Below the pieces are notes generated by a model. The model made no database searches, was not told the DNA's origin, and saw nothing but the letters and a program-made list of their open reading frames with translations. A stretch of DNA of 64,000 nucleotides from NCBI GenBank assembly GCA_017302435.1, contig JAFLDL010000004.1:90161-154160 (forward strand), written 5' to 3'. Shown here in pieces: positions 522 to 19,241 of the stretch (its first letter is position 1; every line of letters begins with the position of its first letter). The translations under genes were made by a program, and so were the position numbers. The stretch is from Candidatus Accumulibacter necessarius (GTDB lineage: Bacteria > Pseudomonadota > Gammaproteobacteria > Burkholderiales > Rhodocyclaceae).

Positions 522-2198
522 TCAGGCCTTCTTGATTGCCTCGTCGCGGAGTTCGCGGCGCAGGATCTTGCCGACGTTGGTCTTCGGCAACTCGGTACGG
601 AATTCGACCTGGCCAGGCACCTTGTAGCCGGTCAGGTGCTCCCGGCAATGGGCGATCAACGCCTCTGCAGTGAGCGCCGGGTCCTTCTTGACGACGAAGA
701 TCTTCACCGCCTCTCCCGACTTGTCGTGCGGAACACCGACCGCAGCAACCTCAAGAACGCCGGGATGCTGGGCCACGACATCCTCGACTTCGTTCGGGTA
801 CACGTTGAAGCCCGAGACCAGAATCATGTCCTTCTTCCGGTCGACAATACGGACGAAACCGGTTTCATCCATCACCGCGATATCGCCGGTCAGCAGGAAA
901 CCGTCAGGCATGATGACCTTGGCGGTCTCTTCAGGACGGTTGTAATAACCCTTCATGACCTGCGGACCCCGGATGCAGAGTTCGCCGCGCTCGCCCAGCG
1001 GTACATCGACGCCCGCGTCGTTGCGAATGGCGACCTCGGTAGACGAGATCGGCACACCAATCGCGCCGGTGTAGGCGGGGATGTCTAGTGGATTGATGGT
1101 TGCCGCCGGCGAGGTTTCGGTCAGACCATAGGCCTCGATGAGGGGCTTGCCGGTCACCTGCTTCCACCTTTCTGCAACCGCCCTCTGGACGGCCATCCCA
1201 CCGCCGAGCGTGACCTTGAGCTTGGCGAAGTCGAGCGCACAAAAGGCATCATTGTTCAGCATGGCATTGAACAGGGTATTGACGCCGGTGATGACCGTGA
1301 AGGGATACTTGCCCAGTTCCGCGACAAAACCAGGAATGTCGCGCGGGTTGGTAATCAGCAGGTTGCTGGCACCGATCTTGAAAAAGGTGAAGCAGTTCGC
1401 CGTCAGGGCGAAAATGTGGTAGAGGGGCAGCGCCGTAACGACCATGTGCTGCTCATCCCCCAGCGCCGGCTTGATCCAGGCGTGCGCTTGGGCGAGATTG
1501 GCCAGGATGTTGCGATGAATCAGCATGGCCCCTTTCGAGAGGCCTGTCGTTCCACCCGTGTACTGCAGAAAGGCCAGATCTTCCTGCTTGACGGCGACCG
1601 CCTTCAGCTCGGCCGAAGCGCCCTTGGCAAGCGCGCTACGGAAATTGACGGCGCGCGGCAGATTCCATGCCGGCACCATCTTCTTGACATACTTGACGAC
1701 GAAATTGACGACCGCACCCTTCGGAAAGCCGAGCATGTCGCCAAGACGAGCCACCACGATGTGTTTCACCGGCGTTCTCGCCACGACCTGCTCCAGGGTG
1801 ACAGCGAAATTCTCGAGAATCACGATGACGTCGGCGCCTGAATCCTTCAGTTGATGCTCCAGTTCGCGTGGCGTGTACAGCGGGTTGACATTCACCACCA
1901 CATAGCCCGCACGCAAGGCACCGAAAATACAGATCGGATACTGCAGCACATTCGGCATCATCAGGGCCACGCGGGCCCCCAGCGGCAACTTGAGAACCGA
2001 CTGCAGGTAAGCGGCAAAATCCCGCGACAACTTGTCGAGTTCCGCGTAGGTGATCTCGACCCCCATGTTGATATAGGCCACGCGGTCGCGATACTTTGCG
2101 ACGCTTTTCTCGAACAGCTCGCCAAGCGACTGGAACTCGCTCAAATCAACCTCGGCGGGTACGCCCTGTTGATAGCTCTTCAGCCAGATCTTCTCCAC
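522..2198 (-). CDS. fadD: Long-chain fatty acid--CoA ligase (FadD type)
   Basis: This is a 558-residue AMP-forming acyl-CoA synthetase, close to E. coli FadD (561). It activates long-chain fatty acids to acyl-CoA at the inner membrane. The phosphate-binding loop [11 protein letters not shown] lies around residues 212-222. The acyl-CoA synthetase signature runs through [11 protein letters not shown], and the C-terminal hinge/lysine region has [21 protein letters not shown] place the start at GTG 2198-2196 because a strong AGGAGGAG sits just upstream; the open frame extends 28 codons further but that part is low-complexity Arg/Gly. It could feed beta-oxidation or the lipid storage genes at 10-18 kb. 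Confidence 0.93.
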
Positions 2199-10072: not shown

Positions 10073-10351
10073 ATGAGCGACATCATCATTCGCCGCCAGC
10101 ACGGCAAGAGTCTCTCCGAGGCACGCGCGTCGGCTGAACACATGGCGTCGGAGTTGAACGAAGAGTTCGACCTCAGCTACCATTGGGACGGCGATGTCAT
10201 GCGCTTCAAGCGACCCGGTGTCGCCGGCGATCTGTCGGTCGACGATCAGCAGGTTGCTCTCAATATTCGTCTTGGCTTCCTGCTGTTCGCGCTCAAGCCC
10301 ACCATAGAACGTGAGATCCACAGGTTTTTCGACGAAAACTTCCCCACCTGA
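10073..10351 (+). CDS. Polyhydroxyalkanoic acid system family protein (PHA_gran_rgn)
   Basis: A 92-residue protein with the features of the small PHA-system family (PF09650 type): MSDIIIRRQHGKSLSEAR at the N-terminus, a central FDLSYHWDGDVMRFKRPGV strand region, and a C-terminal LLFALKPTIEREI segment. Members occur next to phasins and PHA genes, but their biochemical role is not settled. It follows rsgA by 17 bp on the same strand and begins the storage-lipid region (phasin, patatin, PhaD-like regulator at 13-16 kb). The family call is from recognised sequence pattern. Confidence 0.85.
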   Translation: MSDIIIRRQHGKSLSEARASAEHMASELNEEFDLSYHWDGDVMRFKRPGVAGDLSVDDQQVALNIRLGFLLFALKPTIEREIHRFFDENFPT

Positions 10352-10366
10352 AGAAAGCTGCCCGCA

Positions 10367-10385
10367 AAGCCGGCCGAACCGGCTT
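10367..10385. terminator. Short hairpin between convergent PHA-system and ACBP genes
   Basis: AAGCCGG pairs with CCGGCTT around CCGAA, and the right arm reaches the stop codon of the ACBP gene. There is no clear T-tract, so this is only a possible bidirectional terminator. Confidence 0.4.
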
Positions 10386-10645
10386 CAGCTCGCTTTCAAC
10401 TTTTCGATTAGGGCAATGTACTGCTGCATTGCCTCGGCAGCAGGTGTCCCCTTGATTGCTGCCCAGGCGTCGTATTTGGCGCGACCAACCATATCGGTAA
10501 AACCAGGGCGCCGGCCGTCGACGTCGCCGTCGCTGGCCTGCTTGTAAAGCGCATAGAGTTTTAGCAAAGTGGCGTTGTCCGGACGCTCGGGGAGTCTCTT
10601 GGAACTGGCAACAGCGGCCTCGAACTGGGCTTGCAGGTCACTCAC
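10385..10645 (-). CDS. Acyl-CoA-binding protein (ACBP)
   Basis: An 86-residue ACBP, the standard length. The sequence has the four-helix family pattern: FEAAVASSKRLPERP, then LKLYALYKQASDGDV, then AKYDAWAAIKGTPAAEAMQQYI, including the Tyr and Lys residues that contact the CoA moiety. ACBPs bind and buffer medium/long acyl-CoA in the cytosol. The start is GTG 10645-10643 behind AGAGGAA; the open frame continues far upstream only as an antisense shadow of the acyltransferase gene. It is divergent from the WS/DGAT gene (78 bp), so an acyl-CoA supply role for it is likely, by inference. Confidence 0.93.
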   Translation of the reverse strand: MSDLQAQFEAAVASSKRLPERPDNATLLKLYALYKQASDGDVDGRRPGFTDMVGRAKYDAWAAIKGTPAAEAMQQYIALIEKLKAS

Positions 10646-10723
10646 GGTGGTTCCTCTGGTTGATGATCGTGTGAACAGGCTTGCTATTATATGGGCTTGC
10701 CATTTCCACCGGGAGCACACGCG

Positions 10724-12247
10724 ATGACTTCGCGCCAGAGAATTTCTCATGTCGACACTGCCTGGTTGCGCATGGACCGACCTGAAAACCTGATGCAGAT
10801 CCTTGGTGTGATGGTTTTCAAGGGCCGCGTCGACGCCGAACGGTTCAAGCACACAGTCGCTCGACGCATGCTGCGTTACGAACGCTTTCGGCAGATTGCG
10901 ACGGAGGATTCCGATGCCTGGTGGTGGGTCGACGACTCCGACTTCGACATCGATGCGCACGTGCGCCACTGGTTTCTCCCGGCGCCCTGCGGCAAGCATG
11001 AACTGCAGAAGTTTGTCGCCGAAATGGCCAGCACGCCACTCAATCCGGCACGGCCGCGCTGGGAATTCAACCTCGTTGACATGGCCGACGGCAATTCCGC
11101 ACTGGTCGTTCGCATCCACCATGCAATTGGCGATGGCATTGCCCTGCTTGGCGTCATCCACTCGCTGACCGATGACCAGGCCGAGGCGCCGGAGGAGGGC
11201 GGCCCGCCGGCTGCATCGCCAGGCAGCAGCCGAACGCTTGGCCGCCTGGAAGACGAAGGCGACCAAGACGACGCTTTCTGGCGCCTGGTCCTGGAGCCTC
11301 TGACGGACATCGCGTCCGCCTCGATACGCGTCGGTGGCCACCTCTGGGGACAATACCTTGGCCTGCGCAATGACCCGGCACGCCTTCGCGACTACGCCCG
11401 GGTGGCGAGTGCGGTTGCCCAGGAAGTCAGCCAGCTTGCCTTGATGCCCAACGACACGCCGACGCGCTACAAGGGCAAGCCTGGCACGGTCAAGCGCGTG
11501 GCCTGGTCGGAACCGCTCCTGCTGAGCGACATCAAGGCGGTCGGCAAGGCTCTCGGCTGCTCGGTCAACGACACCCTGCTCGCTTCGGTCGCCGGTGCCC
11601 TGCGCAGCTATCTGGTAGCCAAAGGTGATCATCTGGGCACCGGTGCAATTCGCGCCATGGTACCGGTCAATCTGCGTGCCCCCGGGGACGTCGACGATCT
11701 CGGCAATCGCTTTGGCCTGGTCGCACTCGAACTGCCGATCGGCATCGAGAACCCGCTGGCCAGGCTGTACGCGACGCGGGCCCGGATGGCTGCGTTGAAG
11801 GGTTCGTATCAGGCGATGCTGACCTTCAGCATCCTTGGCGCTGCCGGCATGGCGCCAAAATTTGTCGAGGACCAGATTCTCAACCTGCTGACCAGCAAGA
11901 CCACGGCGGTCATGACCAATGTCCCGGGTTTCCAGCAGCCCCGTTACTTCGCCGGCAGCGAGATCGACCAGCAGATGGTCTGGGTACCGCAAGCCGGCGA
12001 CATCGGCATGGGCGTCAGCATCCTGTCCTACAATGGCAGAGTGCAGTTCGGGCTGATTACCGACCGGAACATGGTCGACGACCCCGAGCAGATCGTCAAC
12101 CGATTGGCAGTTGAGTTCGACAAACTGCTCTGGCTGCTCCTGCTGGAGCCTTGGGACCGGCTAAGCGATCCTGACGCGGTAGCCGACGATCTTGCCGGCC
12201 AGCCGCCTCCCCGCGCAGCGAAGCGCCGCATGACTGGCGCACCCTGA
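10724..12247 (+). CDS. Wax ester synthase / diacylglycerol acyltransferase (WS/DGAT)
   Basis: A 507-residue bifunctional acyltransferase of the Acinetobacter AtfA/Marinobacter WS type. The catalytic HHxxxDG motif is at residues 132-138 (HHAIGDG). The PLNPARPRWEF motif precedes it, and the C-terminal domain has TNVPGFQQPRYFAG. It condenses acyl-CoA with a fatty alcohol (wax ester) or diacylglycerol (triacylglycerol) at the membrane or lipid droplet surface. The ATG at 10724 gives the normal N-terminus (RISHVDTAWLRMDRPENLM). Context is strong: ACBP divergent beside it and a fatty acyl-CoA reductase at 16 kb. Confidence 0.95.
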   Translation: MTSRQRISHVDTAWLRMDRPENLMQILGVMVFKGRVDAERFKHTVARRMLRYERFRQIATEDSDAWWWVDDSDFDIDAHVRHWFLPAPCGKHELQKFVAEMASTPLNPARPRWEFNLVDMADGNSALVVRIHHAIGDGIALLGVIHSLTDDQAEAPEEGGPPAASPGSSRTLGRLEDEGDQDDAFWRLVLEPLTDIASASIRVGGHLWGQYLGLRNDPARLRDYARVASAVAQEVSQLALMPNDTPTRYKGKPGTVKRVAWSEPLLLSDIKAVGKALGCSVNDTLLASVAGALRSYLVAKGDHLGTGAIRAMVPVNLRAPGDVDDLGNRFGLVALELPIGIENPLARLYATRARMAALKGSYQAMLTFSILGAAGMAPKFVEDQILNLLTSKTTAVMTNVPGFQQPRYFAGSEIDQQMVWVPQAGDIGMGVSILSYNGRVQFGLITDRNMVDDPEQIVNRLAVEFDKLLWLLLLEPWDRLSDPDAVADDLAGQPPPRAAKRRMTGAP

Positions 12248-12344
12248 GAGATTGCCACGGGCTGCGGCAATTCCCGTGAACACCTCAGCCGGGCCGTATC
12301 GCGCATCAATCCCAATGGCCCCTCGGCAGATGGAAAACCGCGAG

Positions 12345-13118
12345 TCAGTCGGCAAGTTCGGCCTTCGCCGCTTCGACGTCCAGACGTTCCATCGCATCCA
12401 TCGGCTGGCAGCCTGCAGCTTCCTGATACAGCCGTTCGGCGTCCTTCAGCTTCGCCTTGCCGAACATCAGGACCAAGGCGTTGGCATACTCGATGCGGGC
12501 GATCGCAGAGTCGGGGATCAGTTCGAGCGCGGCTTCAAGCAGTTCCTTCCCGGTGTCCTTCTTTGCCCCGTAGGTAATTCCGCCAACCAGCGAGCCGACC
12601 TTGTCGATCACCTCTGCGTGATAGGCGCCAAGCGCGATGCGCGCGTCAGCGTGGCGAGGCTCAAGCGCCAGAGCCTGCGTCAGGCTGTGTTTGATCTTGC
12701 CGCCCATGCCCTCGGCGAGCGCCTTGACCACCGAAATGCTCTGGCTGTAGCGACCAAGCGCAAAGGCGTGGAGATACCAGGCATTCACATCGGCGGGCGT
12801 CTTTTCCTGCTGCTCCTCGCAGCGCTGCGCGACCTGCGTGAGCAAGCTGCGCTTGCGCTCGTCGTCAGTCTCGAGATAACCGGCGTAGATCGTCGCCGCC
12901 TTGTTGGCCACGTTGTAACCAGCCAAGCCGCAAGCCAGACCAGTCGCGACCGCCTGGCCAAAGTCACCAGCGTGATAGCTTCGCCAGGCGTCCTGCACTT
13001 TTGGATCGTCGGGGAAGGGCTCGCAGTCGCCGCGATGCAGGCGTGCCCAGTTCTCTTGCAACGCCCCGCCGGCATAGTTGTATGCCTTGTCAGGATAGGG
13101 AAACTTTTTCCAGATCAT
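12345..13118 (-). CDS. Uncharacterised TPR-like protein
   Basis: A 257-residue soluble protein without signal peptide. It begins MIWKKFPYPDKAYNYAGG behind a GAGCGAGGA ribosome site. Several helix-turn-helix units of TPR character can be seen (AWRSYHAGDFGQAVATGLA, HADARIALGAYHAEVI, PDSAIARIEYANALVLMFG), suggesting a protein-interaction solenoid. I know no function for it. It sits 47 bp after the PhaD-like TetR gene on the same strand and just past the WS/DGAT gene, so it may belong to the storage-lipid region. Confidence 0.75.
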   Translation of the reverse strand: MIWKKFPYPDKAYNYAGGALQENWARLHRGDCEPFPDDPKVQDAWRSYHAGDFGQAVATGLACGLAGYNVANKAATIYAGYLETDDERKRSLLTQVAQRCEEQQEKTPADVNAWYLHAFALGRYSQSISVVKALAEGMGGKIKHSLTQALALEPRHADARIALGAYHAEVIDKVGSLVGGITYGAKKDTGKELLEAALELIPDSAIARIEYANALVLMFGKAKLKDAERLYQEAAGCQPMDAMERLDVEAAKAELAD

Positions 13119-13165
13119 TGCTTGTCCTCGCTCCAGGTTCGTGAAGAATGGCCTTGCCCACCAGG

Positions 13166-13813
13166 CTACGCCGGGAGGTACTCCTGCGACAGCCTTTCGA
13201 GCAGGCCTCTCGATTCGCCCAACAGAAACGGCGAAACCATCGCCATCACCTGATACACGCCGCGGCCAATGCGACCACTCTCGACCTTGCCGCGTGGGTC
13301 GCACGCATACTCGAAGGACAGCCAGTAGCTCGCGAGCACGGTCATGTTCGTCGCCAAGGCACGCAGCTCCTGAGTGCTGGCGCGCATCGCACCTGCCAGG
13401 ACCAGCCCGTCGCACAAGGTGGTCGCCGTCCGCACCTTGTGCGCCAGTATCTGCCTGAAATGAATCTCCAGAACACGATTGCGGGTCAACAGATCATTCA
13501 GGTCGCGATAAAAGAAACGATACTTCCAGATCTGTTCGAACAGGAGATGCAGGAACAGCCAGATATCCTCGACGTTGGCTGGCCGTCTGGTCGGCGCGGC
13601 AAGGGTTTCCTCGATCTCCCGTTCGAAGACGGCAAAGATTGATTCGAGGATTTCGTCCTTGTTATGGAAATGATAATAAAGGTTACCGGGACTGATGTTC
13701 ATCTCGTCCGCAATGACCGTGGTCGTCACATTCGGCTCACCGAAGTCATTGAACAGGCGCAGGCTCGTTTCGAGAATGCGTTCGCGCGTACGCCGCTTCG
13801 GCTTCTTGTCCAT
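13166..13813 (-). CDS. TetR family regulator, PhaD-like
   Basis: A 215-residue regulator. The N-terminal TetR helix-turn-helix is clear: RERILETSLRLFNDFGEPNV then ADEMNISPGNLYYHFHNKDE. The C-terminal ligand domain (EDIWLFLHLLFEQIWKYRFFYRDLNDLL) is very like Pseudomonas PhaD, the regulator of PHA genes that is thought to sense a fatty-acid-derived ligand. Start ATG 13813. The neighbourhood (patatin and phasin upstream on the same strand, TPR-like gene downstream) supports control of storage genes. Targets are not visible from sequence. Confidence 0.88.
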   Translation of the reverse strand: MDKKPKRRTRERILETSLRLFNDFGEPNVTTTVIADEMNISPGNLYYHFHNKDEILESIFAVFEREIEETLAAPTRRPANVEDIWLFLHLLFEQIWKYRFFYRDLNDLLTRNRVLEIHFRQILAHKVRTATTLCDGLVLAGAMRASTQELRALATNMTVLASYWLSFEYACDPRGKVESGRIGRGVYQVMAMVSPFLLGESRGLLERLSQEYLPA

Positions 13814-13923
13814 CCACTGCCCGTCCTGATCTGTCAGCAACGGCCAGCATAGCACTCCGTGCCAGCCCAGGGAATCCTCGCAGCCGTGATCTGCAAAGCC
13901 CAAGCCCGGCGAGCACGGCAGGA

Positions 13924-15141
13924 TCAGGCTTTCTGTGCTTCCAGCCAGACTTCGAGATCGCGCAACGAAGCGTCAAGCGCGCTGGCGCTGGTCGCCAGAT
14001 CCGGACGGCGCTTGTGTGACAGCAACGAACGACTGTGGTCCTTGAGTACACCGAGATTCAATTCAATACCGTGACGAGCGAAGATCGGCCTCAACTCATG
14101 GCGCCGCCGGTAGAGATCGCTGCGGGTGCGTTGATAGGCATGCTCGCATAAACGACTGCGGCCCCGATAGCTGAACACATTGGTAAAGAACATGTCCGCA
14201 TCATCACGCGTCGGCTCGAACAGGACCACGTCCCTCCCCTGAAACTCGTGCCGATAGCGATCCATGCCGGTGCGCATCCGCGAGTGGATGATGGCCCGGA
14301 AAGTTTGCGCCAGGACGACCGGCAAACCGCCATCAACCAGATGCTCGGGAGCCGGTGTCCGGTTCCCGTGCAGCGGCCGTTTGGCTGCCAGGCGTGAATC
14401 AAAGGGCACCAGCGGGTTGATGCAGATCAGCAACTCGGCGCCCTGCTGCAGCGCAACCGAAGCATGCAGTGTCTTGATCAGAGCGCCATCGACGAAATAC
14501 CGCTCGCCGATCCGGACCGGTGGAAACAGGCCCGGCAAGGCAGCACTGGCCTGCACGGCGACAGAGATGGGCACCTCATCATGCCCCTCGGAGCCGAAGG
14601 CGACCGACTCTCCGGTGTCGAGATCGGTTGCTACGATGAACAGCCGATGCTTGAGCTGGCGAAAATCGTTGCTCCGCCCGCCGGTCGAAAAGAGTCTTCG
14701 CAGCAGTTGGTCAATTCCTGAACTGTTGAAAAGCCCGGCGGGAATCGCATGACTGAGACCCTGGAACGCCTCGACCAGACGAAGATGCCAGGGATCCGAA
14801 AGGTACTGGCGCAAGGACGACCAGAACAACACTGGCACGGCAAGCGCACGCCGCAGGTATTCGCCGAAAGCCGGACGCAGAAGCATCTCGGGGTCAAATA
14901 CCTCGTCGGTATCGTTTTCCACCAGCATGCGGGCCAACTTGGCAGGCCCCAGGCCGTTGGCGACGGCAGCCGATATGAAGGCACCCGAACTGACCCCGAC
15001 GTAGATGTCAAAGCCGGTAAAGTCCAAACCATCGAGAGCCTCGGCCAATGCGGCCATCGCACCGACCTCGTAAATACCACCCACCGGACCACCCCCGGCG
15101 AGCGCCAGCCCGATCCTCGCACGCTTCCTTGCAGCAACCAT
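13924..15141 (-). CDS. Patatin-like phospholipase/acylhydrolase
   Basis: A 405-residue patatin-family protein. The oxyanion loop is LALAGGGPVGGIYEVGA, the nucleophile elbow is GVSSGAF (Ser-Asp dyad), and the dyad aspartate is in DGALIKTLHAS. There is no signal peptide, so it should act in the cytoplasm. Patatins hydrolyse acyl esters of phospholipids or neutral lipids, and some are granule-associated. Placed between a PhaD-like regulator and a phasin, a role in mobilising stored lipid or PHA is plausible but unproven. Start ATG 15141. Confidence 0.9.
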   Translation of the reverse strand: MVAARKRARIGLALAGGGPVGGIYEVGAMAALAEALDGLDFTGFDIYVGVSSGAFISAAVANGLGPAKLARMLVENDTDEVFDPEMLLRPAFGEYLRRALAVPVLFWSSLRQYLSDPWHLRLVEAFQGLSHAIPAGLFNSSGIDQLLRRLFSTGGRSNDFRQLKHRLFIVATDLDTGESVAFGSEGHDEVPISVAVQASAALPGLFPPVRIGERYFVDGALIKTLHASVALQQGAELLICINPLVPFDSRLAAKRPLHGNRTPAPEHLVDGGLPVVLAQTFRAIIHSRMRTGMDRYRHEFQGRDVVLFEPTRDDADMFFTNVFSYRGRSRLCEHAYQRTRSDLYRRRHELRPIFARHGIELNLGVLKDHSRSLLSHKRRPDLATSASALDASLRDLEVWLEAQKA

Positions 15142-15285
15142 GGACCGCCATCCTTTCTCCTGGGGATACACCGCCTGCGGCAACATCCGACGCCGCTTTC
15201 CTGTGACTCGCTGTCAGCAGATCAAGCTCAAGACGACAGCGGACAAGCGCCGCCTGTCAACCGCAATCGCCTGCCTCAGCCAGCT

Positions 15286-15311
15286 GAGGCCCTCCCCTGG
15301 GGGAGGGCCTC
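15286..15311. other. Perfect 12-bp inverted repeat between phasin and patatin genes
   Basis: GAGGCCCTCCCC and GGGGAGGGCCTC are separated by two bases. It lies ~73 bases after the phasin stop on the minus strand. No T-tract follows on that strand, so it is more likely an mRNA 3'-end stabiliser or processing element than an intrinsic terminator. It could uncouple phasin from patatin expression. Confidence 0.6.
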
Positions 15312-15383
15312 GCACACTCTGCAACCCTGGTTGAGGGCCTGGTCCAGGCACCGATGCCGGGTTGCACCAAACCGCTGAGGAAC

Positions 15384-15953
15384 CTACTCGCTTGGCTGTG
15401 GAATGGTATTCAGCACATCAGCCGGAGTCACCGGCGGGACCGGCTTGGCGGCAGCGGCTTTGGCCGCAGGCCGGCGAGTAGCCGGTCTGGCGGCAGCCGG
15501 TTTGGCGGCCGCTGGCTCAGCCGCGGTGGCCGCTTCTTTCACGACCGGCTTGGCGACGATCTTGGGAGCAGTTTTCCCCTCGGTCAGGGCCTGCACGGCG
15601 GCACTCAACTCGACGACGCGCTTGGACAGGCGATCAATATCCTGCTTGCTCGGTACACCCAGACTTCCAAGGGCGCGCGCAACACGATCCTCGAACACCT
15701 GCTCCAGGCGATCCCAGGTCCCCGCGGCTTTACCTGCCACCTGAGCAATCCGCTCGTCGGTCATCTTGCGGGTTTTCGACTGGATGCTCTCGCCTTCCTT
15801 GACCAAGGCATCGAACACCTTGCCGCCTTCCTCCTGGGCCTTTGCAAAAGCGCCGAGCCCGGCAAGCCAGATCTGCTGGGCAGATTCCTTGACTGTCGAC
15901 GCCAACTGGTTCTCGCTCACGCCACCAGCCAATTCTCTGAGTTTCTTGCCCAT
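15384..15953 (-). CDS. Phasin family protein (PhaF/PhaI type) with AAKPAA-rich tail
   Basis: A 189-residue granule-associated protein. Residues ~1-125 form the phasin domain (WLAGLGAFAKAQEEGGKVFDAL, then a predicted coiled coil around DIDRLSKRVVELSAAVQAL). Residues ~130-180 are a Lys/Ala/Pro-rich repeat tail like that of PhaF, which in Pseudomonas binds DNA and helps segregate PHA granules. AAGGAG lies six bases before ATG 15953, favouring that start over the ATG six bases upstream. Phasins coat PHA granules; coating wax ester/TAG inclusions in this strain is only a possibility. Confidence 0.9.
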   Translation of the reverse strand: MGKKLRELAGGVSENQLASTVKESAQQIWLAGLGAFAKAQEEGGKVFDALVKEGESIQSKTRKMTDERIAQVAGKAAGTWDRLEQVFEDRVARALGSLGVPSKQDIDRLSKRVVELSAAVQALTEGKTAPKIVAKPVVKEAATAAEPAAAKPAAARPATRRPAAKAAAAKPVPPVTPADVLNTIPQPSE

Positions 15954-16113
15954 TTCCATCTCCTTCAACGTAGTCACAAAAAAGGTCAACAAGTTTTTTG
16001 CTTGCCCTAAGAAGCCAGTGTAGTGACAATATCTAGAGGACGCACACTAAAGACCCGGGCAACGGTCTCTAGACGACGGCAGTCCTGCAAACAAGGACCA
16101 CGGGAGAGAACAA

Positions 16114-18099
16114 ATGAATTACTTCGTTACCGGCGCTACGGGTTTCATCGGCAAGCGGCTTGTCGCCAAACTGTTGGCAAGGCCCGAAGCGACCGTCTAT
16201 TTCTTGACACGCGCAGTTGAGCAGTCCCACCTGCAGGATCTGTACGAGTACTGGGGTTGTGAAGCCAGCCGCGCCATCCCGATCGTCGGCGACCTCACGC
16301 AGGCTGAACTGGGCGTTTCAAAAGCAGACATCCGCAAGCTGAAGGGCAAGATCGAGCACTTCTTTCACCTCGCCGCAATCTATGACCTCAAGGCGAGCGC
16401 CGAAGACCAGCAGCGTGCCAACGTCGACGGCACGCGCAATACCGTGCGGCTGGCCGAGGAAATCGGTGCCGGACATTTCCACCTGGTCAGTTCAATTGCT
16501 TCTGCCGGCCTCTTCGAAGGACTGTTTCGTGAAGACATGTTCGACGAAGCGGAAAACCTCGACAACCCCTACTTCCGAACCAAGCATGATTCCGAGGGCA
16601 TCGTCCGCAAGGAGTGCAGGATTCCCTGGCGCATCTTCCGCCCGGCGATCGTTGTCGGCGACTCGCGCACCGGCGAAATGGACAAGATCGACGGCCCCTA
16701 CTACTTCTTCAAGCTGATCCAGAAAATGCGCCGGATGTTCCCCTCCTGGATGCCGACGATCGGCATTGAAGGCGGGCGAATCAACGTTGTCCCGGTCGAC
16801 TTCGTCGTCGCCGCCATGGACCATATTGCGCACCTCGAGAACGAGGACGGTAACTGCTTCCACCTGACCGATCCGACACCGATGCGCGTCGGCGATCTGC
16901 TCAACACCTTCGCGCGTGCGGCGCACGCGCCCGAAATGGCGTTGCGCATCAACGCCGCCCTGCTCGGTTTCATTCCGCGCTCGATGCGCAAGGCGATGTT
17001 CGCCCTGACGCCGGTTCGCCGCATCCGCAGCGCCGTGATGAAGGATCTTGGCCTGCCCGACGACATCCTCGACTTCGTCAACTACCCGACCCGCTTCGAC
17101 TGCCGGGAGACGCAGCGCGCCCTCAAAGGCAGCGGCATCGCGGTGCCCCCGCTCGACAGCTACGCCTGGCGCCTGTGGGATTACTGGGAACGTCACCTCG
17201 ACCCCGATCTGTTCATCGATCGCACCCTGCGCGGCCAGGTCGAAGGCAAGGTCGTACTGGTCACCGGCGGCTCCTCCGGTATCGGCAAGGCCACTATTCG
17301 CAAGCTGGCCGAGGCCGGAGCAATTGCCGTCACCATCGCTCGCGATGCGCAGGCGCTGGAAGCAGTCCGCAAGGAATTCGAGTCAGCCGGCCTGCGCCTG
17401 ATCACGCACGCCGTCGACGTGGCCGACACACAGCAGTGCGAAGCCTTCGTCAAGTTCATGAACGAAGAGCATGGCGGTGTGGACATCCTGGTCAACAACG
17501 CCGGTCGCTCGATTCGCCGCGGCATCGAAAACTCCTTCGATCGCTTCCACGACTTCGAGCGGACGATGGAAGTCAACTATTTCGGTGCGCTGCGGCTGAC
17601 GATGGGCTTCCTGCCGGCCATGATTGCCAAGCGCAAGGGGCACGTGATCAATATCTCGTCAATCGGCGTCCTGACCAATGCGCCGCGCTTCTCGGCCTAC
17701 GTCGCCTCAAAGGCGGCGATGGACGCCTGGGCACGCTGCGCCGCGTCGGAGTTTGCCGACCGCGGCATCGAATTCACGACCATCAACATGCCGCTGGTGA
17801 AGACCCCGATGATCGCGCCGACCAAGCTTTACGATCAGGTGCCGACGCTGTCCCCGGAAGATGCGGCCGATCTGGTGGTCGAGGCGATCATCCACAAGCC
17901 GGTACGGATCGCCACGCGACTGGGCATTTTCGGCGCCCTGCTGCACTCGGTGACGCCAAAGGTTGCCCAGATAACGATGAATACCTCTTTCCGGATGTTC
18001 CCCGACTCCAGTGCCGCGGCGCACAAGCAGCAGGAGCCAGCCCAGCAAACGGCTGACCAGGTTGCCTTCTCGCAGATGATGCGCGGGATTCATTTCTGA
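16114..18099 (+). CDS. Two-domain fatty acyl-CoA reductase / SDR fusion (Marinobacter FAR type)
   Basis: 661 residues, the same length and layout as the bifunctional fatty acyl-CoA reductase I recall from Marinobacter (Maqu_2507). The N-terminal extended SDR/thioester-reductase half has GATGFIG at 7-13 and Tyr153/Lys157 (YFRTK). The C-terminal classical SDR half has TGGSSGIG near 382-389, NNAGRS, a Ser in NISSIG and Tyr529/Lys533 (YVASK). Linker phrases such as WDYWERHLDPDLF are characteristic. Known members reduce acyl-CoA to fatty alcohol via aldehyde using NADPH. With WS/DGAT nearby this completes wax ester synthesis. A GGGAGAG site precedes the ATG. Confidence 0.9.
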   Translation: MNYFVTGATGFIGKRLVAKLLARPEATVYFLTRAVEQSHLQDLYEYWGCEASRAIPIVGDLTQAELGVSKADIRKLKGKIEHFFHLAAIYDLKASAEDQQRANVDGTRNTVRLAEEIGAGHFHLVSSIASAGLFEGLFREDMFDEAENLDNPYFRTKHDSEGIVRKECRIPWRIFRPAIVVGDSRTGEMDKIDGPYYFFKLIQKMRRMFPSWMPTIGIEGGRINVVPVDFVVAAMDHIAHLENEDGNCFHLTDPTPMRVGDLLNTFARAAHAPEMALRINAALLGFIPRSMRKAMFALTPVRRIRSAVMKDLGLPDDILDFVNYPTRFDCRETQRALKGSGIAVPPLDSYAWRLWDYWERHLDPDLFIDRTLRGQVEGKVVLVTGGSSGIGKATIRKLAEAGAIAVTIARDAQALEAVRKEFESAGLRLITHAVDVADTQQCEAFVKFMNEEHGGVDILVNNAGRSIRRGIENSFDRFHDFERTMEVNYFGALRLTMGFLPAMIAKRKGHVINISSIGVLTNAPRFSAYVASKAAMDAWARCAASEFADRGIEFTTINMPLVKTPMIAPTKLYDQVPTLSPEDAADLVVEAIIHKPVRIATRLGIFGALLHSVTPKVAQITMNTSFRMFPDSSAAAHKQQEPAQQTADQVAFSQMMRGIHF

Positions 18100-18680: not shown

Positions 18681-19241
18681 ATGGACCACCTGCTCAAGGA
18701 CAGTGCCACACTTGAGTTGTACGCCTGGCTGGACGAGGATGCCGAGTTGCCGGGGTGGGACATCCTGATCGGCAACCCCTTTGGTCAATCGCTACCTGAG
18801 GACCAGTTCACGACCGTTCAGAACTACTTTGCCGAGTATCACCTGGAGTACTTCCGCCAACGCCTCTACCAGCAATTCCCGAGCCGACTGCACGCCCTGC
18901 TGCTCTTCGCGACACGCGTGGACGCCGAAACCTTCCGCATCAAGCATCCGGCGCGTGTGTTTGGCAAGACGCTAGCCCGTGCGCGCAGCCAGGGCGCTTA
19001 CCTTTGCTCATTTCACGATTCGAGCTGGCTCGACTACCTGCGATTGCCGCATAGCCTCAGCCTGTCGACGCTTGATGAAATCGCCAACCACTACTGGAAG
19101 GGCGCCCTGGTCGAAGACGTCGGGCTGACCTTCCTCAACGAACGCTGGCGGGAACCACCGGTTATCGAAGCTCTTTTTCAAGGCAAGCTTGAAGCCGTCA
19201 CGACACGCCCCGAGAGCGGCTGGCTGCCCGGCTTCGCCTGA
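18681..19241 (+). CDS. Uncharacterised protein downstream of proQ
   Basis: A 186-residue cytoplasmic protein, no signal peptide or membrane segment. A PSRLHALLLFATRVDAETFR segment, then a VEDVGLTFLNERWREPPVIEALFQG segment, recall the loosely defined DUF2441-type proteins (ADP-ribosyltransferase-like fold), but this is a weak impression and I do not assign a function. Codon use is like the neighbours and it is open from ATG 18681 to TGA 19241. It may be co-transcribed with proQ. Confidence 0.7.
   Translation: MDHLLKDSATLELYAWLDEDAELPGWDILIGNPFGQSLPEDQFTTVQNYFAEYHLEYFRQRLYQQFPSRLHALLLFATRVDAETFRIKHPARVFGKTLARARSQGAYLCSFHDSSWLDYLRLPHSLSLSTLDEIANHYWKGALVEDVGLTFLNERWREPPVIEALFQGKLEAVTTRPESGWLPGFA

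Follow-up and report, generated by a model that had tools for sequence, protein, structure and literature searches.

The wax ester route of Marinobacter consists of a fatty acyl-CoA reductase (FAR, Maqu_2507) and WS/DGAT. Enzymes of the same families, as judged by model and motif rather than by direct alignment of the FAR with Maqu_2507, are encoded at positions 10,073–18,099 of a 64,000-nucleotide stretch of Candidatus Accumulibacter necessarius (the window, C34:90161–154160 of a draft genome that totals 4.56 Mb over 88 contigs). The WS/DGAT of the window matches the solved WS/DGAT structures 7nxg (110 bits) and 6chj (100 bits), which we take to come from Marinobacter. Compared with the Marinobacter route, the window adds a phasin, a patatin, a tetratricopeptide repeat (TPR) protein and a TetR-family regulator in a conserved block, together with a shared operator-like inverted repeat (dyad). 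We consider it somewhat probable that the block is a TetR-controlled neutral-lipid storage module, with the phasin coating wax ester or triacylglycerol bodies and perhaps also polyhydroxyalkanoate (PHA) granules.

Maqu_2507 was also the reference for similar betaproteobacterial short-chain dehydrogenases/reductases (SDRs) in Galvan et al. 2023 (PMC10351704). In the passages covered of that paper, two scaffolds of Betaproteobacteria are reported to carry an acyl-CoA-binding protein (ACBP), WS/DGAT, an SDR 59% identical to Maqu_2507 and a PHA-system protein, and a further scaffold a phasin. Shared with the window are the ACBP adjoining WS/DGAT, the FAR-like SDR and the PHA-system protein. The terms "patatin" and "tetr" have 0 occurrences in its main text, and no operator or regulon is described in the passages covered. 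Most of the enzyme neighbourhood is already known in Betaproteobacteria from this work, while the dyad, its two-site pair and the link of the phasin to wax genes are new; among the papers listed by an open-licence literature search, none beyond that one was seen to describe any of the three. The mixed locus, of which the sequence-only reading knew no description in this lineage, has thus been described in part.

Regulated phasin promoters are known in other bacteria. In Ralstonia, PhaR represses the phasin promoter of PhaP, and the coat is made only when a storage body exists; the likeness lies in a repressor and a phasin promoter, and the difference is that PhaR is not a TetR protein. In Pseudomonas, a TetR regulator, PhaD, acts on the promoter of the phasins PhaI and PhaF according to the parts of PMC9049629 covered. 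There, however, it is described as an activator within a PHA-synthase operon, whereas no PHA synthase was found among the scanned genes of the block and the partners are wax ester enzymes; the two systems are compared by description. The operator sequence of PhaD was not found in the open-licence literature search. Accumulibacter itself is known for polyphosphate, glycogen and PHA. No report of a wax ester or triacylglycerol store in Accumulibacter was found in the parts of the open-licence literature covered, where wax ester appears for this organism only in a cited title.

Dyad in the Phasin/FAR Promoter

Alignment of the gap between the divergent phasin and FAR genes for the window and 14 close loci gave a nearly invariant block. 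Across 80 FAR loci (the best 80 of at least 579 confirmed FAR relatives, the set behind all 80-locus counts), the block reduces to TAG-N10-CTA, with a wider consensus of yTAGRG-N6-nYCTAA from 98 sites (84 distinct), in which TAG and CTA are invariant by design of the search. The dyad of the window is TAGAGGACGCACACTA at 16,034–16,049, with a 20-bp form at 16,033–16,052. In 73 of the 80 loci, the TAG-N10-CTA pattern lies no more than 400 bp upstream of FAR, at a density of 3.06 per kb there versus 0.020 per kb in the remainder of the same loci. A second dyad lies exactly 22 bp away in 25 of the 80 loci; the window copy, at 16,056–16,071, is degenerate, with the right half CTA intact and the left half lost.

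The 20-mer CTAGAGGANGCACACTAAAG, with 19 fixed bases, was searched over the draft genome allowing up to three mismatches. It occurs in two places only, C34:106193–106212 (window 16,033–16,052) and C9:9788–9807, both exact, and the reversed control gave 0 matches. The C9 site lies between a second WS/DGAT gene (WS/DGAT 2, minus strand) and a second PF05597 phasin (phasin 2, plus strand; 66 bits), so each of the two genomic sites separates a phasin from a wax ester enzyme. The same phasin 2/WS-DGAT 2 pair is present on C10 of another Accumulibacter genome (G001, that of locus L013), with the tandem dyad pattern at one mismatch. According to the sequence-only reading, one region coordinates two storage polymers. 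The dyad common to both pairs is a candidate for such coordination, but the claim is too wide, since neither the gap alignment nor the 20-mer genome search placed a dyad in the ACBP/WS-DGAT 1 gap of the window or near its PHA_gran_rgn gene.

Two other search patterns were rejected. The first dyad pattern returned the FAR site and five three-mismatch matches, of which one overlaps the C9 region; the controls gave 8 and 9 matches. The tandem-dyad pattern was run on the own genome and on 15 others, each the source of one of the 25 tandem loci. It lacked specificity (0–7 reversed-control matches per strand and genome) and was replaced by the 20-mer. It recovered the FAR site without mismatch in the 15 relatives' genomes, and its single match in the own genome was the C9 site. 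The remaining matches were within the control level; among them is one in L109, within a long frame that was taken to encode a GGDEF protein.

Two isolated occurrences were also seen. A one-mismatch tandem dyad, possibly a chance match, is located at about 6867 of L112 (G014 C45:40000–54000) upstream of a different TetR gene, and the genes downstream of that TetR were read as fatty-acid-degradation-like. In L217 (G382, C30:120000–135000), a second dyad stands just upstream of the gene of a 191-aa helical protein (10,995–11,683), which has weak, below-cut-off apolipoprotein-like matches. This protein might be a further coat of lipid bodies that shares the dyad control.

Candidate Regulator

The TetR-family regulator (13,166–13,903, minus strand) matches PF13972 with 151 bits and also PF00440. 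Its true start may be further downstream, since most homologues align from residue 22–38. In a sample of 200 genomes from the order, which includes the own genome and was restricted to a completeness of 95% or more, it was detected in 51 at E 1e-25. The matches fall into two groups, one with at least 44% identity (32 genomes, called orthologues) and one with at most 36%. The 41 phasin genes of this sample were checked for a dyad within 600 bp upstream of the phasin match. Genomes with the orthologue hold 35 of these genes, 29 of them with a dyad, and the other genomes hold 6, none with a dyad; per genome, these figures are 22/23 and 0/6. Random 600-bp windows of the same loci contained the dyad in 1252 of 20,000 cases (6.3%, real sites included). 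In addition, the 7 FAR loci without a dyad (L016, L025, L029, L030, L038, L039 and L063) all lack a TetR match. From this pattern of occurrence, we infer that the TetR protein is the binder of the dyad.

In a class-wide sample of 281 genomes, the dyad was found at 15 of 19 phasin loci, 3 of the 19 coming from the order and two of these from the own genome. The loci without it are those of the f58 genomes G223, G346 and G431, which have no WS/DGAT, and of G219, which has one. No gene of the f58 loci, two of the three being read as frames, was recognised as part of a Pseudomonas-like pha cluster. Outside the order, the dyad was present in 5 of 6 genomes with WS/DGAT and in 1 of 4 without, a difference that is not significant (Fisher 0.19).

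Conserved Linkage and Co-occurrence

About 10 kb of upstream DNA was available for 65 of the 80 FAR loci, including three with a match starting at residue 2 or 3 (L038, L039 and L079); the other 15 are shorter. Upstream of FAR, these 65 loci contain phasin in 62, TetR in 55, TPR in 53, patatin in 49, WS/DGAT in 31, ACBP in 26 and PHA_gran_rgn in 24. All seven partners are present in 16 loci and none in 3 (L016, L038 and L039). The sequence-only reading had raised the prospect of scattered, unlinked homologues in close relatives; the linkage is instead conserved and beyond chance, although six further sampled genomes of the own family are without FAR, phasin and WS/DGAT altogether.

The order ACBP (−), WS/DGAT (+), TPR (−), TetR (−), patatin (−), phasin (−), FAR (+) recurs, often minus one or more members, in genomes of Rhodocyclales and Burkholderiales type. 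Betaproteobacteria carry the block widely. Craterilacuibacter and Crenobacter keep this order without ACBP, and in L015 the WS/DGAT, TPR and TetR genes are inverted relative to the block. A different arrangement was observed in six loci of family f20 (L117, L126, L142, L153, L160 and L169), where FAR is divergent from WS/DGAT and PHA_gran_rgn is adjoining or a few kb off; their promoter has no dyad and their genomes have no TetR orthologue. Four of the 19 class-wide phasin loci (L178, L181, L183 and L184) have PHA_gran_rgn as the immediate neighbour of the phasin, which suggests an old link between the two families.

Among the 200 genomes of the order, FAR (NF005539, E 1e-100) was found in 26, WS/DGAT (1e-12) in 28, the PF05597 phasin (1e-8) in 29 and PhaC (1e-20) in 134. 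All 26 FAR genomes carry both phasin and WS/DGAT, while G091 and G153 have these two without FAR and G213 has the phasin alone of the three. Fisher tests, which ignore relatedness, gave 2e-33 for phasin with WS/DGAT, 1e-29 with FAR and 6e-6 with PhaC. By a hand count of coordinates, FAR adjoins phasin in 16 and WS/DGAT in 9 of the 26 FAR genomes, and in G017 it is on its own contig. Since 28 of the 29 phasin genomes carry WS/DGAT, and the phasin is present in 28/28 WS/DGAT genomes but only 29/134 PhaC genomes, the data suggest that this phasin is mainly part of the wax system. Class-wide, the phasin was found in 12 genomes, WS/DGAT in 17 and both in 8 (Fisher 1e-8). Of the 10 phasin genomes that do not belong to the order, 6 carry WS/DGAT. 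One of the four class-wide phasin genomes without WS/DGAT, G382, has FAR, TetR, phasin and dyad all present.

Proposed Module and Alternative Readings

Gene content, motifs, conserved linkage, conservation and two-site distribution of the dyad, and co-occurrence were all observed directly, and a module can be built on them. FadD and ACBP would supply and buffer acyl-CoA, which FAR is predicted to convert to fatty alcohol. WS/DGAT 1 and its two paralogues on other contigs (2 and 3) would then form wax ester from the alcohol or triacylglycerol from diacylglycerol, and lipid turnover would fall to the patatin as a hydrolase of acyl lipids. A role in lipid binding or transport is possible for the TPR protein. 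The bodies formed in this way would be coated by the PF05597 phasin, whose basic tail might also anchor them to DNA. The TetR protein, with a presumed ligand, would act as a repressor on the TAGRG-N6-CTAA dyads of the divergent promoters, which would induce each coat protein jointly with an enzyme: phasin 1 and FAR in the window, phasin 2 and WS/DGAT 2 on C9.

Several observations weigh against this module and are considered here with the readings they favour. One such reading takes the phasin and the PHA_gran_rgn protein as ordinary PHA-granule proteins and the wax genes as mere neighbours, with the TetR protein as a PhaD-like PHA regulator and a divergent promoter that happens to include FAR. 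It seems unlikely to us, even though PhaC is present in 29/29 phasin genomes and the phasin may serve PHA as well. PhaP1 of R. eutropha probably belongs to PF09361. A legend in the review PMC5658603, in contrast, places PhaP1 in PF05597; were this correct, it would weaken the case for an exclusively wax-related role of the family. The parts of the same review covered include PF05597 and PF09650 among the phasin families, and PhaI and PhaF are an example of phasins under a TetR regulator (PMC9049629, passages covered). Outside the order, moreover, the association of phasin with WS/DGAT is weaker, as the class-wide counts indicate: 9 of the 17 WS/DGAT genomes are without this phasin, and 4 of the 12 phasin genomes are without WS/DGAT. 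What speaks for a wax-related phasin is its presence in just 29 of the 134 PhaC genomes versus every WS/DGAT genome of the order, the second genomic dyad, which again faces WS/DGAT, and the missing dyad in the three f58 genomes that have the phasin without WS/DGAT. Far less probable is that the alcohol or aldehyde made by FAR serves another purpose, in membrane or surface lipids, and that the genes are linked through some general response to acyl chains. In the order sample, each of the 26 FAR genomes carries WS/DGAT somewhere, although WS/DGAT is upstream in only 31 of the 65 loci for which about 10 kb was available and G382 has FAR without a WS/DGAT match. The FAR activity itself relies on NF005539 representing acyl-CoA reductases, which is presumed here, in part on the basis of Galvan et al., rather than from a direct comparison with Maqu_2507.

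The dyad could also be bound by another factor, with the TetR protein of the cluster controlling only its own operon or distant genes, an explanation that we regard as rather improbable. Six loci with a dyad (L043, L044, L049, L056, L061 and L077) have no TetR within 10 kb, and in G347 the phasin has a dyad though the sole TetR match of the examined stretch is 34% identical. In addition, the TetR orthologue is present in nine genomes that lack phasin, FAR and WS/DGAT and show no dyad within about 6 kb of it; other targets of the regulator, present or past, follow from this. Against the proposed module itself, six of the 35 phasin genes in orthologue genomes lack the dyad, and the link between TetR and dyad is not phylogenetically independent, since the six TetR-less phasin genes all belong to one family. 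The module is also weakened by the empty ACBP/WS-DGAT 1 gap and by the nine promoters shared by divergent FAR and WS/DGAT genes, none of which has a dyad; the dyad tracks the phasin and not FAR. Against a different binder stand the 22 of 23 phasin genomes with both orthologue and dyad, compared with none of 6 without the orthologue, and the lack of a TetR match in every FAR locus without a dyad.

A wider version of the proposed module is possible, though slightly less likely than not. The PF05597 "PHA phasin" of Betaproteobacteria and some Gammaproteobacteria would be a coat of wax ester or triacylglycerol under a dedicated TetR operator, yTAGRG-N6-nYCTAA, which pairs it with wax ester enzymes at sites throughout the genome; with a lipid-carrying TPR protein, this would amount to a lipid-droplet programme behind a PHA annotation, Accumulibacter included. 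Many "PHA phasin" annotations would be misleading if, in these lineages, the family is a marker of wax ester bodies. For an organism that removes phosphorus, a controlled wax ester or triacylglycerol store would, if true, add another sink for carbon, and the dyad offers a sequence handle for finding and testing lipid-body genes of Betaproteobacteria.

Genes and Products of the Locus

The block comprises PHA_gran_rgn (+), ACBP (−), WS/DGAT (+), TPR (−), TetR (−), patatin (−), phasin (−) and FAR (+), flanked by RsgA, labelled from a reading of its frame, and ProQ. Ten window proteins were scanned against Pfam with curated cut-offs and against NCBIfam. Every gene named in the sequence-only reading was found at its position and above the Pfam cut-off, and the HHAIGDG motif, both SDR halves of FAR and the phasin tail were confirmed by motif check; its list had missed the conserved TPR gene. 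All active-site motifs searched in block proteins are intact. No PhaC or PhaZ family was found among the ten proteins by either database, and ACBP, TPR, TetR and patatin gave no NCBIfam match over the cut-off. Simple sigma-70 and terminator scans performed no better than on shuffled sequence.

The two-domain FAR (16,114–18,099, plus strand) matches NF005539/PRK07201 with 1018 bits (cut-off 549) over residues 1–661, on model positions 1–657, under the NCBI name of merely "SDR family oxidoreductase". The Pfam models adh_short and NAD_binding_4 give 181 and 169 bits. GATGFIG and YFRTK are intact in one half and GGSSGIG and YVASK in the other. Among the matches listed, it is at most 92% identical to FARs of other genomes, the nearest named ones being from Candidatus Accumulibacter (at most 91%). 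WS/DGAT 1 (10,724–12,247, plus strand) matches TIGR02946 with 379 bits (cut-off 310) and the Pfam WS_DGAT_cat and C models with 127 and 128 bits, and carries HHAIGDG at residue 132 and SVND at 280; three WS/DGAT genes were found in the genome, this one and copies on C56 and C9. By family and motif, FAR and WS/DGAT form a complete wax ester gene set, as the sequence-only reading had proposed. The ACBP (10,385–10,645, minus strand; 86 aa, GTG start, 98 bits in Pfam) is divergent from WS/DGAT, and the long-chain acyl-CoA ligase FadD (522–2198, minus strand) is a possible source of acyl-CoA. The patatin-like acyl hydrolase (13,924–15,186, minus strand; 98 bits in Pfam) has GVSSG and DGA intact.

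Phasin 1 (15,384–15,953, minus strand; about 189 aa) matches PF05597 with 135 bits (cut-off 28.8) and TIGR01837 with 99.6 bits (cut-off 94.7). A start at 15,953 is preferred over that of the longest frame (15,992) because of a likely ribosome-binding site. Its tail of 64 residues is rich in A, P and K and resembles in composition the DNA-binding tail of PhaF, as described in the parts of PMC5658603 covered; by this likeness, it might tether bodies to DNA. A C-terminal motif (VTPADVLN-like) was dropped, as only 10 of 75 rows matched, a few rows being misframed fragments. Between phasin and patatin, a 12-bp perfect inverted repeat (15,286–15,311) may be the terminator of the phasin transcript; this gap gave no alignment across the relatives listed. 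The PHA_gran_rgn protein (10,073–10,351, plus strand; 92 aa) matches PF09650 with 93 bits and TIGR02610 with 85 bits (cut-off 40).

The TPR protein (12,345–13,118, minus strand; 257 aa) was modelled from 35 sequences with a mean pLDDT of 97.3. The predicted fold is closest to lipid-binding TPR domains, the top solved structures being the TPR domain of PTPIP51 (7cc7), which transfers phosphatidic acid in vitro (PMC9239997, parts covered), and a bacterial sterol transporter (7t1s), with TM scores of 0.62–0.63 by query and 0.69–0.70 by target. Identity to both is 15–17% and the rmsd 4.8–6.4, with ordinary TPR proteins ranking close behind. Since TPR folds are common and identity is this low, lipid carriage is taken as a lead only. 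Pfam RMD1-3 matches 12 of the 35 members at E 0.01, and generic TPR models match more. The gene stays beside TetR in L201 and L205–L207, where the phasin is elsewhere or absent, but not in eight other phasin-less loci or in L203.

Beyond ProQ, the window encodes a 186-aa protein (18,681–19,241) with no Pfam or NCBIfam match, which follows ProQ in 9 of the 80 loci (L005–L013).

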